A stretch of DNA of 33,690 nt from a virus: the IMG/VR virus record IMGVR_UViG_3300035670_000790, positions 1 through 33,690 of that record; one strand, 5' to 3'. Below the pieces are notes generated by a model, which made no database searches, was not told where the DNA came from, and saw only the letters and a program-made list of their open reading frames with translations. The position numbers and the translations under genes were made by a program. Positions 12,729 to 33,085 of the stretch are shown in pieces. The stretch's first letter is position 1. The number at the start of each line of letters is the position of its first letter.

Positions 12729-14132
12729 TTATAACCCCAAAATACAAGTTGCCGCCTCTTTAATCGCAGCGGTTAGCGTGTCTGCCTGTTGCTTTTCAGC
12801 CCTTATATATTCTAGCGCATCACTAGCCTTGCCCACAGTGCCAGCCTCTACCTGACCAGTCAAATGGTTAATAACATTAACCTGTATATCCATATCACCA
12901 CGCTCATCAATCAATGCCTTCAAGTCAGCATCGACAGGCTCAACGTCTTGCGCCTGCTCTTTCGGCTTCTTACTAACAGGCTTTGGCTTTGTCTGCTTTA
13001 CCGGCAGCTGCTCGTCTATCCTAGATACCTCTGCCTTTATAGATGCAGCCTCATCACCTACAACAATTGCAGGCTTGCCAGACTCAAACTCCAGATTGCC
13101 AGCCTTTACATTCACCGGCTCGCCACGATTAAGCGACTCAACGGCAGAGTCCAACTGGTTAACATGGGCATGCACAACATCAGGCGATACAGGGCGACCA
13201 GGCATAGAGCCATAAACCCTGTGGTGATAATTAGCCAACACCATCAACGCATCGTGAACGCCTGGCAATTCACCCTGAGCCTTCAGGAATGATGCCCTGT
13301 CCTTGATACTAGCCCCTGCCTGCATCAGCTTGTTGCCAAACACAGCATCCCCTACAGTTGGCGCTACCTCGCCCTTGATTGCAGACCGACCGGCAAACGC
13401 CATACCCATCAAGGCATCCATTGCTATAGCATTGGCATCCCAAGGATTAAAGTTTTCAGCATACTCACCCTCGGCAATCTGCTGCTGTGTAGCCCGTTCA
13501 GCTATACCAATGGCAGGGTTTGACAGTGCAGCTATCCCCAACTTTGAAAGAATAGTATTACCAAACACCGGAAGCCATGCACCAACAGCCGCCGCAGCAC
13601 CTCGAACCACGCCCATAGTTGCGGCATCTTCCTGACCCGCTCTAGCTGCCTCTAGTCCGGCAGTCATTTGCTGTGTGGCTACAAATCCGGCAGGGCCAGT
13701 CATTACAAAGTTACCAATCCCGCCTAGTACATTTGACACAAGCTCAACAGGCGCATCAATCTCACCACCATTCGGAGTCCAGTAGTCAACAGCATCGCCA
13801 CCAATGCCATCTACAACATTCTCAAAATACCAATCCTGAGCCTGAGTGCCATTATCAAACAGATAGTCGTAAGCCATCGGAGCAACTGAACCAGCAAATA
13901 ACGCAGCCTGTCCAGTCTTGGCGAATGTTTCACGCATCATTATGTTACCCGCTTGCGGTAACTGCTGATCCCAATAGCTTTCTATCCCATCATCTTCAGT
14001 CAGCACATTGCCAACAGAGGTTACAAACTCGCCTACCTCAGATATGTCAGCCTTTGCAGTAGTGCCGAAACGCTGTGCATACCTTGTAGCGTATTCCTCA
14101 TCGTCACCGGAAATGTCAAAAATGTCAGTCAT
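12729..14132 (-). CDS. Internal virion protein, 467 residues
   Basis: Acidic N-terminus (MTDIFDISGDDEEYATRYAQ), then several Gly/Ala-rich hydrophobic stretches (VLGGIGNFVMTGPAGFVATQ; VVRGAAAAVGAWLPVF) that could insert in membrane during ejection, and a Lys/Pro linker (KQTKPKPVSKKPKEQAQD) before a helical end. Placed between the two larger internal proteins, it is probably an ejection protein, an extra one compared with the three-gene T7 set. No enzymatic motif was found. Confidence 0.65.
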   Translation of the reverse strand: MTDIFDISGDDEEYATRYAQRFGTTAKADISEVGEFVTSVGNVLTEDDGIESYWDQQLPQAGNIMMRETFAKTGQAALFAGSVAPMAYDYLFDNGTQAQDWYFENVVDGIGGDAVDYWTPNGGEIDAPVELVSNVLGGIGNFVMTGPAGFVATQQMTAGLEAARAGQEDAATMGVVRGAAAAVGAWLPVFGNTILSKLGIAALSNPAIGIAERATQQQIAEGEYAENFNPWDANAIAMDALMGMAFAGRSAIKGEVAPTVGDAVFGNKLMQAGASIKDRASFLKAQGELPGVHDALMVLANYHHRVYGSMPGRPVSPDVVHAHVNQLDSAVESLNRGEPVNVKAGNLEFESGKPAIVVGDEAASIKAEVSRIDEQLPVKQTKPKPVSKKPKEQAQDVEPVDADLKALIDERGDMDIQVNVINHLTGQVEAGTVGKASDALEYIRAEKQQADTLTAAIKEAATCILGL

Positions 14133-25702: not shown

Positions 25703-25708
25703 TCATCC

Positions 25709-25773
25709 AAATGTCTTATATACTTGAACTGTGTGCTTGTTAATATGGACACATCAACCACGGAGATGCAGAC
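25709..25773 (+). promoter_or_regulatory. Duplicated promoter/leader block, copy 1
   Basis: A 65-base block ending at the ATG of the next gene, repeated at 29718-29782 with exactly the same spacing. The left part shares AAATGTCTNATNTACTNGA; the right 29 bases before the start codon are almost identical, from TATGGACACATCAACC through CGGAGATGCAGA, including the GGAG ribosome-binding site. TAATAT at 25741 could be a -10 box. It faces away from the late promoters, making 25660-25773 a divergent control region. Confidence 0.6.
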
Positions 25774-25944
25774 ATGAGCAAGTACCACGTTACAAAAGAA
25801 GGGTTAAGGGTTGGCGCTGGCGGTTATCCGATATGCGGAACAAGAAACAAGGACAGATATTTTGTTGTGACGCTGAAAAAATCAGATTTTGAAGCGTTAC
25901 CGCCTGAGCAACAATGCAGTAAGTGCGCGGTAAGAATTAAATGA
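25774..25944 (+). CDS. Small hypothetical protein, first early gene
   Basis: 56 residues, MSKYHVTKEGLRVGAGGYPI through CSKCAVRIK. C47-x2-C50 and an earlier Cys could make a small metal site (first CGTR near residue 21). It starts right after the duplicated leader with its GGAG site, and ends at an ATGA overlap with the next gene. Probably an early regulator or accessory protein; function unknown. Confidence 0.65.
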   Translation: MSKYHVTKEGLRVGAGGYPICGTRNKDRYFVVTLKKSDFEALPPEQQCSKCAVRIK

Positions 25945-26081
25945 AACCAAAATCTGAACTCATGGCCAGACTTCGCAAGGAGCGAGCTGGCAAGGGGCTG
26001 GTAGAGCTGCGGCTGTGGCTTACGCCAGAACAGAAAGAGCGCGTCTTGAAGTGCGTGTCGCGGCTGAAGCGTGACGCATAA
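25941..26081 (+). CDS. Small ribbon-helix-helix-like protein
   Basis: 46 residues: KSELMARLRKERAGKGLVEL, then RLWLTPEQKERVLKCVSRLK. The Lys/Arg helix, 'GLVELRLWLTPEQ' strand and following helix resemble short phage proteins thought to bind DNA through a ribbon-helix-helix fold. Starts at ATGA. Its stop TAA forms part of the left box of the first attC-like site in array 2, so it is the last phage gene, or an unflanked cassette ORF, before that array. Confidence 0.6.
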   Translation: MKPKSELMARLRKERAGKGLVELRLWLTPEQKERVLKCVSRLKRDA

Positions 26082-26134
26082 TCCAGAGCTAACCGGCTCG
26101 CGTTAGCGAGTCCGAGTTGAGCGAATTGTTATGT
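26076..26134 (+). repeat. attC-like site 2, first of array 2 (59 bp)
   Basis: Outer boxes GCATAAT (26076-26082, final C changed to T) and GTTATGT (26128-26134). Arms GCTAACCGG (26088-26096) and CCGAGTTGAGC (26112-26122) pair throughout except A26115 and G26119, two extrahelical bases on the right arm. Loop CTCGCGTTAGCGAG is itself self-complementary. The 59-bp length and two-bulge structure are classic for attC. Read on the minus strand it begins ACATAACAATTCGCTCAAC, very close to the start of common class 1 attC sites. Confidence 0.9.
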
Positions 26135-26156
26135 GCTGGTAAGGTAAGGGGTATTT

Positions 26157-26333
26157 ATGGAATATGAAGAACTGAAACGAAGATGCGAAGTCATTGAACA
26201 ATGCTTACCCGATTCTCCATTTAAGAATCAAATTATAGAGCTGCATAAAGAGATGCTTTACCGGATTGATTCTTTAGGACAGGCATTAGAAGCAACGAAT
26301 GACGAATTGGCTGATTTGCTTTATAGCACATAA
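26157..26333 (+). CDS. Cassette ORF, 58-residue helical protein
   Basis: MEYEELKRRCEVIEQCLPDS to ...LADLLYST. Mostly acidic helix with two Cys. AAGGGG lies upstream of ATG 26157. The stop TAA lies in the left box of the next site. Its cassette is bounded by GTTATGTGCT (26128-26137) and AGCACATAAC (26325-26334), a perfect 10-bp inverted repeat. Function unknown. Confidence 0.65.
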   Translation: MEYEELKRRCEVIEQCLPDSPFKNQIIELHKEMLYRIDSLGQALEATNDELADLLYST

Positions 26334-26402
26334 CCCAGAGCTATGGGGCGAGCGTAGCGAGTCCAACGAACGGAGTGAGTGACCATGAGCGAATTGTTAT
26401 AT
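26328..26402 (+). repeat. attC-like site 3 (75 bp, extended loop)
   Basis: Outer boxes ACATAAC (26328-26334) and GTTATAT (26396-26402). Arms GCTATGG (26340-26346) and CCATGAGC (26383-26390) pair except for G26387, one extrahelical base on the right arm. The long middle contains its own short complementary pieces, like the variable terminal structure of many attC sites. Confidence 0.88.
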
Positions 26403-26418
26403 GGCTAAAGGAGATTAT

Positions 26419-26745
26419 ATGAGCGTGATTTGTAGAAACACCGGATGCAGACAGGAAATAGAATGTATAAATTGCGATTGTGGGTTAGTGGTTTATTTGC
26501 ACAGTCTAACACCGCAGGCAAAAACAATGACTTGGAATGAATGGAGAGCCGCTGGCGGTTGTGGGCTTTCTATGTTAGCAGATGGTGAACTGCATAGGAG
26601 CGGGATATTAGAAAAGCCATTGGCTATACAAAACCCGCTGCTAGGAGATGTTGCGCGTGGTTCTGTTCTTGCAGAGCGCGAGATTGCAAGATTTGGGTAC
26701 AAGAATCTAGGCATGGATAATTGGGCTGTGCGAGAAGCCATATAA
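26419..26745 (+). CDS. Cassette ORF, Cys-rich protein
   Basis: 108 residues from ATG 26419, which has AAAGGAG six bases upstream; a longer in-frame start ATG 26401 lies in the attC box. Residues 5-23 carry six Cys (ICRNTGCRQEIECINCDCG), probably a zinc-binding knot, followed by a Trp-containing helical body. No family recognised. The cassette ends GTTATATGGC and GCCATATAAC are a perfect 10-bp inverted repeat. Confidence 0.65.
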   Translation: MSVICRNTGCRQEIECINCDCGLVVYLHSLTPQAKTMTWNEWRAAGGCGLSMLADGELHRSGILEKPLAIQNPLLGDVARGSVLAEREIARFGYKNLGMDNWAVREAI

Positions 26746-26792
26746 CCCAGTTTTTCAGCGGGCGAAGCTCCGGTGCAAAACCGTTGTTAGGC
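26740..26792 (+). repeat. attC-like site 4
   Basis: Outer boxes ATATAAC (26740-26746) and GTTAGGC (26786-26792); GTTAGGC fits GTTRRRY exactly and is the commonest integron right box. Arms TTTTTCAGCGG and CCGGTGCAAAA pair with two mismatches around GCGAAGCT. The boxes do not match each other because each belongs to a different neighbour cassette. Confidence 0.82.
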
Positions 26793-26818
26793 GTTGTAAT
26801 TAACGAGAGGTAGAGAAG

Positions 26819-27022
26819 ATGGACGAAATCAGGAAATATAGATTTACAATTGATGTAGAGATTCAGATTTCAGGAAGGCAGATAGACGAAGAAAAAATAA
26901 ATCAGATGCTTGTATGTTCGACTAATGAGCATGGAATGCCTGGAGTGCTTTTCGATGATGATGATTTAGATATTCAGGCATTTAGTAATTCGTGGGAAGT
27001 TTCATGCGATAGGATCGCCTAA
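26819..27022 (+). CDS. Cassette ORF, 67-residue acidic protein
   Basis: MDEIRKYRFTIDVEIQISGR, with an acidic DDDDLDIQ segment near the end. The alternating pattern in residues 5-20 suggests a beta strand pair. GAGAGG precedes the start. The stop TAA lies in the cassette's right box; ends GTTAGGCG (26786-26793) and CGCCTAAC (27016-27023) are complementary over 8 bases. Function unknown. Confidence 0.65.
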   Translation: MDEIRKYRFTIDVEIQISGRQIDEEKINQMLVCSTNEHGMPGVLFDDDDLDIQAFSNSWEVSCDRIA

Positions 27023-27023
27023 C

Positions 27024-27083
27024 ACTGGGTTAGACATCACATGACGGGAAGTTTTACGTCATATCAGCGGAATGTCTAATACC
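27024..27083 (+). repeat. Type B palindrome, copy 2, right end of array 2
   Basis: After the cassette end GCCTAAC comes ACTGG, then GTTAGACAT (27029-27037), core GACGGGAAGTTTTACGTC (27043-27060) whose ends TGACG/CGTCA pair, and ATGTCTAATACC closing the outer arm. GTTAGACAT and ATGTCTAAT are inverted with one mismatch, so it looks like a minimal cassette without an ORF. It has no T tract, arguing against a simple terminator. Confidence 0.8.
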
Positions 27084-27136
27084 ACAATTGCTATGGATTG
27101 CTAGAATGAGGCTGTAAATCAAACGAGGGTACGCAA

Positions 27137-28864: not shown

Positions 28865-28995
28865 GCTTTGGCGTACCGGTGAACTGTATGCGTGTTTTAT
28901 ACTTTGATGTGCGGCTAGGGTAGCTCCCGAAAAGCCTGCCCTGTCTGACGGGCTTGCCGCATATCTTATCAGACCACCTAGACAGAGGTATTACA

Positions 28996-29709
28996 GTGAG
29001 CAACAAATTCCTAGATTTGGCATGGAAAGCCAATGTCACGCATACGCAGAAACTTGTCCTAATATCACTCGCAGATCAGGCTAACGATGACGGCATATGC
29101 TGGCCATCTGTATCAACGACATCCCAGCGCACCGGATTATGCGAACGAGCGACCAGACGCGCACTGGCTGACCTAGAGAAACAGGGTAATATCAAGAGAA
29201 GCTACCACACCGGCAGACCGACAATATACACCCTAACCCCTGCACTAGATGCACCCATGCACGAAATGCACCCCTGCACCACATGCCCCCCACCCCTGCA
29301 CCACATGCAGGACACCCCTGCACCAGATGCCTATGACCCCTGCACCACGAGTCAACATAACCATAAAGAACCATCATTGAACCATCAATTAACCATCATT
29401 GACGCTCCAGCCAAGGCTGTCGCCAAAAAGGTTAGGGCTACTAGGTTGTATTCTGATTGGAAACTACCAGAGGAATGGGCAGAGTGGGCAACGATAGAGG
29501 GTATGGATAGCGTGACAGTTAGGAAGCAAGAGAGCATATTCAGGGACTACTGGATAGCAAAGTCAGGAAAGGATGCTGCCAAACTGGACTGGGAGGCAAC
29601 TTGGCGTAACTGGGTCAGGAGGCATCTAGATCGTAATCCGGTTAAGGCACAGCCTGCTGATGACTTCCTGGCTCGTCACACAGACAGGTCATGGGCTGAG
29701 GGTCTGTAG
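28996..29709 (+). CDS. Replication initiator, helix-turn-helix plus DnaT-like C-terminus
   Basis: 237 residues from GTG 28996, preferred over ATG 28954 because of AGAGG at 28983-28987 and because MSNKFLDLAWKANVTHTQKL is the usual beginning. Residues 1-85 are the helix_turn_helix_36 domain (WPSVSTTSQRTGLCERATRR, ALADLEKQGNIKR). A linker (residues about 80-125) is encoded by the iterons. The C-terminus (ESIFRDYWIAKSGKDAAKLD, WEATWRNWVRRHL) is the DnaT/primosomal type seen in phage replication proteins. It should bind the iterons and recruit helicase, as lambda O does. Confidence 0.85.
   Translation: MSNKFLDLAWKANVTHTQKLVLISLADQANDDGICWPSVSTTSQRTGLCERATRRALADLEKQGNIKRSYHTGRPTIYTLTPALDAPMHEMHPCTTCPPPLHHMQDTPAPDAYDPCTTSQHNHKEPSLNHQLTIIDAPAKAVAKKVRATRLYSDWKLPEEWAEWATIEGMDSVTVRKQESIFRDYWIAKSGKDAAKLDWEATWRNWVRRHLDRNPVKAQPADDFLARHTDRSWAEGL
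29236..29352 (+). repeat. Iterons, putative replication origin inside the initiator gene
   Basis: Six copies of a 17-bp unit, consensus ACCCCTGCACCACATGC, starting at 29236, 29253, 29270, 29292, 29314 and 29336. Spacing is 17, 17, 22, 22, 22 bp; 22 bp is about two helical turns. The last copy is diverged at its end. An AT-rich tract with repeated ACCATCATT-type words (29357-29400) follows and could be the unwinding element. Location inside the initiator gene next to an AT-rich stretch matches lambda ori in gene O. Confidence 0.8.
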
Positions 29710-29717
29710 CCTACGAC

Positions 29718-29782
29718 AAATGTCTAATTTACTGGATTTGCAGGATTGGTAGTATGGACACATCAACCACGGAGATGCAGAT
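29718..29782 (+). promoter_or_regulatory. Duplicated promoter/leader block, copy 2
   Basis: Same 65-base layout as 25709-25773: AAATGTCTAATTTACTGGAT, then at the same distance TATGGACACATCAACC and CGGAGATGCAGA up to the ATG at 29783. The identical spacing with a diverged middle suggests that the ends are constrained by function, probably a promoter plus leader with ribosome-binding site. Confidence 0.6.
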
Positions 29783-29911
29783 ATGAACACACTCAGCAAG
29801 AAACAAGAGATTCAGGTTCGCCGCCAAGCGCAGAAACACTTAAGAGGTATCCCAGCTCGCCAAAATGCTGCAGCCATTGTCAGAGCAGCAGCAGAGATAG
29901 GAAAGCAGTAA
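29783..29911 (+). CDS. Small basic protein, 42 residues
   Basis: MNTLSKKQEIQVRRQAQKHL with RGIPARQNAAAIVRAAAEIG and a KQ end; one basic helix-rich domain. It starts directly after the duplicated leader and its TAA overlaps the next ATG (TAATG). Likely an early nucleic-acid-associated peptide; function unknown. Confidence 0.6.
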   Translation: MNTLSKKQEIQVRRQAQKHLRGIPARQNAAAIVRAAAEIGKQ

Positions 29912-31695: not shown

Positions 31696-31731
31696 ATGAC
31701 TACTGAACTTGTGCGACTTGTTAGGCTATGA
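31696..31731 (+). CDS. 11-residue leader peptide across the array 3 border
   Basis: AAAGGAAG lies seven bases upstream of ATG 31696, a better ribosome-binding site than most genes here. The frame reads MTTELVRLVRL and stops at TGA 31729-31731, overlapping ATG 31728 of the first cassette ORF (ATGA). It would feed ribosomes into a cassette that lacks its own site. The attI1 site of class 1 integrons is known to hold a similar short ORF that boosts cassette translation. Confidence 0.5.
   Translation: MTTELVRLVRL
31720..31726 (+). repeat. Single GTTAGGC box at the left border of array 3
   Basis: A perfect GTTRRRY box one base before the first cassette ORF, without the palindromic arms of the attC-like sites. 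It is complementary to the right end of the same cassette, GCCTAAC at 31914-31920. It therefore looks like a simple, attI-like or secondary insertion point. Confidence 0.6.
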
Positions 31732-31919
31732 AAAAGCATCATCTAGTCAAAATAGAATGGCGAGATCCTTGTTCAGATTGGCCGTGGTTTTTTATCATTG
31801 GATTTGATGGTGAATGGGTGCATTTGCGCGGCGCGGATTACCCGGATGGAACTGGGAAACACGACGGATCATCATTCTGGGTTCACAGAAATGAGATCAA
31901 GTCAATGATTGATGCCTAA
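31728..31919 (+). CDS. Cassette ORF, 63 residues
   Basis: MKKHHLVKIEWRDPCSDWPW and on, rich in Trp and His, ending NEIKSMIDA. The LVKIEWRDP and EWVHLRGAD strands suggest a small beta barrel (SH3-like), only a guess. It begins in the border box and has no separate ribosome-binding site; the overlapping leader peptide can supply translation. The TAA stop is in the next site's left box. Confidence 0.6.
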   Translation: MKKHHLVKIEWRDPCSDWPWFFIIGFDGEWVHLRGADYPDGTGKHDGSSFWVHRNEIKSMIDA

Positions 31920-31967
31920 CCCACAGCTAACCGGCGCGAAGCGTCCGAGTTGAGCGAATTTTTAGGC
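31914..31967 (+). repeat. attC-like site 5, first of array 3
   Basis: Outer boxes GCCTAAC (31914-31920) and TTTAGGC (31961-31967; first G of GTTAGGC changed to T). Arms GCTAACCGG (31926-31934) and CCGAGTTGAGC (31945-31955) pair except A31948 and G31952. The arms are identical to those of 26076-26134 while the loop differs (CGCGAAGCGT), showing the same site family. Confidence 0.88.
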
Positions 31968-31994
31968 GGCAACTAACTACAGAGGATAAACAGA

Positions 31995-32312
31995 ATGAAA
32001 CGCGATAAATATAAGTTACAAAAAGACTTTGAGGGCCGGTTTGCCGGTAGATTCGGAAATAATATCGTTTCCAAAAAAACACCATCTGGTGAATATGAAA
32101 ACGGCGATGTATTGGCTATGTATTGCGGATATGTTGCCGGGATAGACTCTGTGAAAATAAAAGTCCCGGCAACTTCAGTAAGATGGCGCGATGCAAATAC
32201 CGCAAAGCTAGAGGATATTTTAAATGCCGAAATAGAAATGAGAAATAAATTTATAGACGCCTGTCGAGAGGCTGGTATAGAGCCGGTATTCGGTGGAGAT
32301 ATAGATGATTGA
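31995..32312 (+). CDS. Cassette ORF, 105 residues
   Basis: MKRDKYKLQKDFEGRFAGRF, then EIEMRNKFIDACREAGIEPV and an acidic end. AGAGGATAAACAG precedes ATG 31995. Basic first half, helical second half; no family recognised. Its cassette is the only one whose two ends do not match: TTTAGGC on the left, GTATAAC on the right (32314-32320). Confidence 0.6.
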   Translation: MKRDKYKLQKDFEGRFAGRFGNNIVSKKTPSGEYENGDVLAMYCGYVAGIDSVKIKVPATSVRWRDANTAKLEDILNAEIEMRNKFIDACREAGIEPVFGGDIDD

Positions 32313-32313
32313 C

Positions 32314-32400
32314 GTATAACCCAGAGCTGAGGGGCGAGAGATGAGCGAAGCGAAGAACGAGTCCAGTGGCGAAGCCACGACCTCTAGCGAGTTGTTATGT
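32314..32400 (+). repeat. attC-like site 6 (87 bp, extended loop)
   Basis: Outer boxes GTATAAC (32314-32320) and GTTATGT (32394-32400). Arms GCTGAGG (32326-32332) and CCTCTAGC (32381-32388) pair except T32385. The long loop has an inner GTGGC...GCCAC hairpin and contains the ATG (32341) of the next ORF. Confidence 0.85.
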
Positions 32401-32601
32401 TGCAGAGAGTGCGGAAACACTTTTATAGAATGTTTCCCATCTTGGTGGGTTGGCTGCAAACCGTGCAATAACCATGTTAGCGGGGCGACACGCAGCGGTG
32501 CGGTTTCCAGATGGAATAAGCAACATAACCAGTTTATTCAGCGGTGCGCAGCATCCGCTGGAATTAGTTGTTATATGCCACATGGAGAAATCACATGGTA
32601 G
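32341..32601 (+). CDS. Cassette ORF with Lar-like zinc ribbon, fused through two attC-like sites
   Basis: 86 residues. The core CCRECGNTFIECFPSWWVGC, KPCNNHVSG and AVSRWNKQ has the spacing of short zinc-ribbon proteins of the Lar restriction-alleviation type (C-x2-C ... C-x2-C/N, then A-x-x-x-W-N). The first ~19 residues are read from the loop of site 6, the last ~17 from site 7 and the next cassette's beginning, because this frame has no stop in the box ACATAAC. The native product may thus be a chimera or start at an alternative codon near 32391. The cassette is only 32394-32529. Confidence 0.5.
   Translation: MSEAKNESSGEATTSSELLCCRECGNTFIECFPSWWVGCKPCNNHVSGATRSGAVSRWNKQHNQFIQRCAASAGISCYMPHGEITW
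32523..32576 (+). repeat. attC-like site 7
   Basis: Outer boxes ACATAAC (32523-32529) and GTTATAT (32570-32576). Arms ATTCAGCGG (32536-32544) and CCGCTGGAAT (32555-32564) pair with a single extra G on the right arm around loop TGCGCAGCAT. The arms differ in sequence from the GCTAACCGG family but keep the same architecture and bulge position, so structure is conserved rather than sequence. Confidence 0.87.
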
Positions 32602-32972
32602 TCACAGGCAGGGTACATGGAGCGGCAGCCAGAAAATATGCTGGTTATTGCTACAGAAAGCCTATAAAAACTAGGCTTGATATTTTTTCGATTGATCCCG
32701 CAAGGATTGATCCTTTACATGAATACCCGAGAATAATAGAAAAGCCCATGTACCCAGCGGAATGCAAAACTGTTGATCTGGCGGATTATGAAGCGTTTAT
32801 TGGCGCAATGAATGAGAAAGGTGAAAGCCAATTAACCATAACTATGCTGCCAAACGAGTACACACAAGCTGAAGTGCCGCTGGTAGTTTACGAGATGACA
32901 ATAAACGGGATACTGCCAAACAGTGGTTTTTGTATCGACGAGGCTATGAGACGCTGTTTCAGTGGCATATAA
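32595..32972 (+). CDS. Cassette ORF, 125 residues
   Basis: MVVTGRVHGAAARKYAGYCY and on, then IDPARIDPLHEYPRIIEKPM and LTITMLPNEYTQAEVPLVVY. ATG 32595 has GGAGAAA upstream; a longer frame from 32568 begins inside the attC box. Alpha/beta character, no family recognised. Its cassette has the best ends of all: GTTATATGCCAC (32570-32581) and GTGGCATATAAC (32962-32973), 12 of 12. Confidence 0.65.
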   Translation: MVVTGRVHGAAARKYAGYCYRKPIKTRLDIFSIDPARIDPLHEYPRIIEKPMYPAECKTVDLADYEAFIGAMNEKGESQLTITMLPNEYTQAEVPLVVYEMTINGILPNSGFCIDEAMRRCFSGI

Positions 32973-32973
32973 C

Positions 32974-33033
32974 ACTGGGTTAGACATCACATGACGCAAA
33001 ACATCCCGTAATATCAGCGGAATGTCTAATACC
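32974..33033 (+). repeat. Type B palindrome, copy 3 with inverted core, right end of array 3
   Basis: ACTGG, GTTAGACATCACAT and TATCAGCGGAATGTCTAATACC are the same as in copy 2, but the 18-base core is GACGCAAAACATCCCGTA (32993-33010). That matches the reverse complement of copy 1's core at 16 of 18 positions and of copy 2's at 15 of 18, and does not match either core in direct orientation. It follows the last cassette end at 32973. Confidence 0.82.
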
Positions 33034-33085
33034 ACAGCACCAAAAAGCATGGAACAATACAGACTCAATACATCGGAGAATGGTT

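Follow-up and report, generated by a model that had tools for sequence, protein, structure and literature searches.

Positions 31720-33033 of the window, the whole 33.7-kb virus record analysed here, are an integron-cassette array without an integrase (array 3), one of three arrays in this phage. Three attC-type hairpin sites, at 31914, 32314, and 32523, lie between four unrelated small ORFs. The array is probably of the integron type: its units, each with an inverted attC, would be moved by a recombinase of the integron-integrase type in an epsilon15-like podovirus. The inversion of the sites, the unit composed of attC, leader, gene, and TAA, and the repeated attI-like array ends go beyond what the earlier note on this DNA had described.

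The record is possibly incomplete. The portal of the phage is 43-54% identical in amino acid sequence to those of Yersinia phage YeP5 (54%), Alcaligenes phage Piluca (43%), and Acinetobacter phage TPWB-05, in which, unlike the window, the structural scan described below found no cluster of attC-type sites. The phage is probably temperate, since its relatives by portal carry integrase and repressor genes. Array 3 is located, as had been claimed, between ninB (phrog_72 match, 3e-19) and a gene for a Sak-like annealing protein (phrog_8492 match, 8e-25), the latter preceded by a small gene. Several other elements were observed in the window. Four iteron-like copies of CACCCCTGCACCAC, with a spacing of about 22 nt, are at 29252-29348 inside the O-like replication gene and are a possible origin; at the equivalent place, the related phage G013 carries different repeats. 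A promoter-like 73-nt repeat (82%) occurs at 25708-25780 and 29717-29789, upstream of two early genes, and an int-alpA RNA (RF02996) on the plus strand at 28908-28975 scored barely above the gathering score.

The sites and ORFs of array 3 are all on the plus strand. At the 5' end, reading of the sequence revealed an apparent 3' remnant of an attC at 31704-31726, composed of an arm, a spacer, and a GTTAGGC box at 31720; it matches the 3' portion of complete attC sites in phages, for example ..GAGCGACTTGTTATGC. ORF 1 (31728-31919, 63 aa) ends with a TAA stop codon, followed by the C of site 1 (31914-31967). Site 1 is inverted relative to the genes, with its extrahelical base in the 3' arm, as judged from the structural scan and folding. 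ORF 2 (31995-32312, 105 aa) is followed by site 2 (32314-32400), which is also inverted and was found by the scan. ORF 3 (32341-32601, 86 aa) is cysteine-rich and begins within site 2. Its reading frame continues through the following TAAC junction, so that the attC of the following unit encodes its C-terminus. Site 3 (32523-32576), inverted as well, was identified by the scan and folding, and the last codon of ORF 4 (32568-32972, up to 134 aa) is the TAA of the 3' junction. Thus, the three sites and four ORF units were present as the earlier note had described them. The other two arrays are also on the plus strand. Array 2 (25941-27029) contains attC sites at 26076-26134, 26328-26402, and 26740-26792 and four small ORFs; the orientation call for the last of these sites went neither way. 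Array 1 (457-1399) consists of a decayed site at about 457-523, an attC at 727-774, and a last cassette at 799-1392.

The sites were identified as attC by a strict structural scan, in which R''/R' pairing, a 7-bp L''/L' stem, one extrahelical base, and fixed spacers were scored up to a maximum of 14. Sites 31914, 32314, and 32523 scored 12, 12, and 13, respectively. In the window, six matches scored at least 12 and three at least 13, whereas 300 dinucleotide shuffles gave expectations of 0.99 and 0.07. Five of the six are inside the arrays, and the stray one (score 12; 13003-13061, minus strand), outside any array, is presumably due to chance. Three matches of at least 12 on one strand within 1 kb occurred in none of the 300 shuffles. 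The same scan recovered the attC at 1016-1075 of phage TJE1, which belongs to a published attC cluster. In addition, sites 31914, 32523, and 26076 are predicted to form single-strand hairpins with z values of -2.5, -3.1, and -4.2; the R and L boxes and the extrahelical base of attC are present in the window, and folding of site 32314 was no better than that of its own shuffles. With three sites and no intI in the record, array 3 corresponds to a CALIN, that is, at least two attC sites with no neighbouring intI. Two loose attC scans were dropped, since shuffles gave many matches. The matches in L011 and L038 were judged to be due to chance, as was that in L033, which falls inside a long tail-type gene, and these three were rejected as attC carriers. 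It is extremely improbable that the hairpins serve only as terminators or as RNA structures separating phage genes. They do stand directly after stop codons, between co-directional genes; however, neither the fixed box layout with a single bulge nor the gain and loss of whole units exactly at the sites fits this role.

In the viral contigs that carry arrays, the attC sites are, with few exceptions among those testable, inverted with respect to the genes. Orientation was defined by the arm that holds the extrahelical base, read in the sense of the genes. Of about 40 phage-array sites, all except a few had this base in the 3' arm; part of these sites were preselected by a scan demanding a 3' bulge, and the sites chosen from R boxes alone agree. 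The exceptions were a few ties, two of which are re-listings with shifted ends, and one classical site, whose arms are probably misplaced. In all six controls (five sites of Endozoicomonas sp. ISHI1 and one of phage TJE1), the base was in the 5' arm, and three of the five Endozoicomonas sites adjoin an IntI (TIGR02249, 448 bits). The orientation of genes and attC that characterizes a complete integron is therefore not found here: the extrahelical base occupies the other arm, and the units are bounded at TAA|C. A classical site orientation in the phage arrays was ruled out by the unit boundaries together with the Endozoicomonas controls.

This inversion also bears on the idea that the array is a transduced piece of a host chromosomal integron with ordinary cassettes. 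The sedentary chromosomal integron of Endozoicomonas sp. ISHI1 has the same CCCAGAGCT-type attC, and its attI junction resembles the phage array ends. Its cassettes, however, are in the classical orientation and an IntI is present, whereas the phage sites are inverted. Moreover, the pattern for the attC type of the window was found in only one of 84,980 genomes, cassettes are common to different phages, and one end element closes three arrays of a single phage. A transduced host integron is thus very unlikely. Neither 50,697 phage records nor 72,556 plasmids gave a match to this attC type.

Comparison of other phages defined the boundaries of the units. Units common to different phages have the form attC, leader, gene, TAA, with the junction at TAA|C. 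The crossover in the bottom strand of attC is 5'-AAC-3' (PMC4792948). The bottom strand is the coding strand in the phage arrays, and the TAA|C junction is the 5'-AA|C-3' crossover expected of an inverted attC. This evidence on junctions comes from the pairs L032/L034 and L035/G012 rather than from array 3 itself. L032 and L034 share cassettes A and B in opposite order (A-B versus B..A). The two copies of cassette B agree at 94% over 233 nt, a stretch that reaches from within the upstream attC to TAAC, and in the case of cassette A the entire upstream attC moves with the gene; the downstream attC of both cassettes differs between the two phages. Along 12,217 nt, L035 and G012 have the same sequence, yet the two are set apart by entire units joined at TAA|C. 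G012 has an extra unit between ORF4 and ORF5, bounded by TAA|CCCAAG at either end, and the end of ORF7 is present as a second copy. ORF4 follows not only ORF3 but also ORF6 in G012, the junction being TAA|CCC. In this one pair of sister phages, whole genes were gained or lost exactly at the hairpin sites, and some viruses thus appear to swap accessory genes via an integron-type system. It should be mentioned that contig IMGVR_UViG_3300030100_001240 (L037, L039) begins and ends within the cassette array, with ORF4 at either end. Repeated cassettes may break such assemblies and thereby hide arrays.

The same comparisons might be explained by homologous recombination or single-strand annealing between similar attC sites and leaders, the sites being repeats and no integrase being involved. 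The window phage encodes a Sak-like protein, and the sites and leaders are alike between units. In addition, both flanks of the ORF7 insertion in G012 share 9 nt (TAACCCAAG), and the left boundary of cassette B is within the attC loop. Against this, the gene-side boundaries are at TAAC in every informative comparison, even where the flanking sites have few bases in common. If similarity alone mattered, the hairpin and its extrahelical base would be expected to decay. This explanation is therefore considered unlikely, and movement of the units by an integron-type recombinase is preferred.

The arms of site 31914 had been reported as identical to those of 26076, and the cassette ORFs as different, which was taken as repeated use of one recombination system rather than local duplication. 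The inner arms are indeed identical (AGCTAACCGGC / GTCCGAGTTGAGCGAATT), and no significant similarity was detected among the cassette ORFs of the window. Local tandem duplication was ruled out on this ground: the ORFs are unrelated, the sites form one family, and other phages contain sites that are nearly the same, all of which agrees with repeated use of one system. The core of site 31914 is also present in the 58-kb phage contig G005, which carries about seven sites of this kind. Site 32314 has a counterpart in G013 (91% identity over 91 nt) with a different ORF downstream.

Across the structural genes, G013 and the window are syntenic (70% nucleotide identity over 5.4 kb). In G013, an array separates the replication gene from ninG, an interval without one in the window. 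Conversely, G013 lacks an array downstream of the homologue of ORF 25774, which is where array 2 of the window is found, and its stretch from ninG to the ERF-type gene contains no attC. The array loci differ between the two, which means that arrays occupy different loci in related phages. Thus, the comparison called for in the earlier note, made with this one related phage, yielded differently placed arrays. No exact empty counterpart of the array 3 locus turned up, as the collections contain no close relative; searches with ninB or with the gene after the array gave none in viral_contigs.

All three arrays of the window finish in one 67-nt element on the minus strand, which starts at the TAAC of the last ORF. 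The copies are at 32970-33036 (array 3, whose end at 33033 falls within it), 27020-27086 (array 2), and 1390-1456 (array 1, with a diverged 3' half). The first is 88% identical to the second and 69% to the third. On the minus strand, the element reads GTCTAAC-CCAGT-G|TTA, with L and R boxes like those of attI. It resembles the array ends of six other phages, the closest being those of G013, L035/G012, and G009, and also ATCTAAT-AGCT-G|TTATGT, the first-cassette junction beside intI in Endozoicomonas. An exact search found no copy elsewhere. The element is read here as a putative attI-like platform that closes the array on its 3' side. The proposed insertion point in array 3 is between 32972 and 32973. 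The 5' end would be the oldest part of arrays 1 and 3, as the decayed or truncated sites there are what is expected in that case. The inner loops of two copies (1411-1431 and 32992-33012) are in opposite orientation (inverted repeat I6, 90%), which suggests a hairpin flip.

No IntI above the family cut-off was found in any array-bearing viral record. PF00589 and TIGR02249 had no match in the window, a possibly incomplete record, so that the intI of a complete integron is lacking in these 33.7 kb. The integrase beside the G012 array and that of G005 are not IntI according to the curated model. The enzyme is most likely a host IntI acting in trans, as far as can be inferred. The lack of IntI in these records and the phage integrase adjoining the G012 array might instead point to Xer or an unrecognised phage recombinase acting on integron-like units. 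This seems highly improbable: the layout of the sites is that of attC, which integron integrases recognize as folded strands, and the G012 integrase is far under the IntI cut-off.

In the proposed mechanism, which assumes an integron-type recombinase, the mobile unit would be composed of an inverted attC, a leader with a ribosome-binding site, one small ORF, and its TAA stop codon; an array of such units reads as a phage operon. The bottom strand of attC, which is the coding strand, would fold as single-stranded DNA, and a tyrosine recombinase of the integron-integrase type would cut it at 5'-TAA|C-3'. Units could then excise, insert, or duplicate at TAA|C points or at the attI-like 3' end, where new units would presumably enter. 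The inverted orientation allows addition of a gene behind a stop codon, in the sense of the operon.

Integron parts in phages, including CALINs in TJE1, P12002L, PH101, and others, were described by Qi et al. 2023 (PMC9892861). Like the window, these phages have attC sites and small cassettes without intI, methyltransferase cargo, and GTTRRRY-type hairpins at the array borders. The arrays of TJE1 and PH101 were termed typical of bacteria (PMC9892861), and the one TJE1 site recovered by our scan is, unlike those of the window, oriented classically with respect to its gene. Neither repeated attI-like ends nor unit turnover between sister phages is described there. A literature search confined largely to open-access journal papers turned up no description of phage cassette arrays with inverted genes; within this scope, both the inversion and the presence of three attI-like platforms are new. 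The inverted orientation provides a simple, testable rule which separates phage arrays from captured host integrons.

As for the cargo, the ORFs of array 3 had no match in Pfam or PHROGs, and ORF 2 and ORF 4 had no tblastn match in phage records. The last cassette of array 1 (799-1392) encodes a DNA methyltransferase (phrog_757), and the G013 array encodes a Lar restriction-alleviation protein (PF14354); together these suggest a role of the cassettes in counter-defence.

Turnover of accessory genes in phages is usually credited to illegitimate or homologous recombination. The cassette units described here represent a modular, site-specific route with defined units and junctions and with turnover between sister strains. 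This route is common to viruses with differing backbones, and its cargo is likely to include counter-defence genes. More broadly, and tentatively, these arrays may represent a virus-specific branch of integrons with attI-like platforms of its own, sometimes several per genome, in which gene-inverted cassettes would circulate among unrelated viruses, recombining during infection while the phage DNA is single-stranded.
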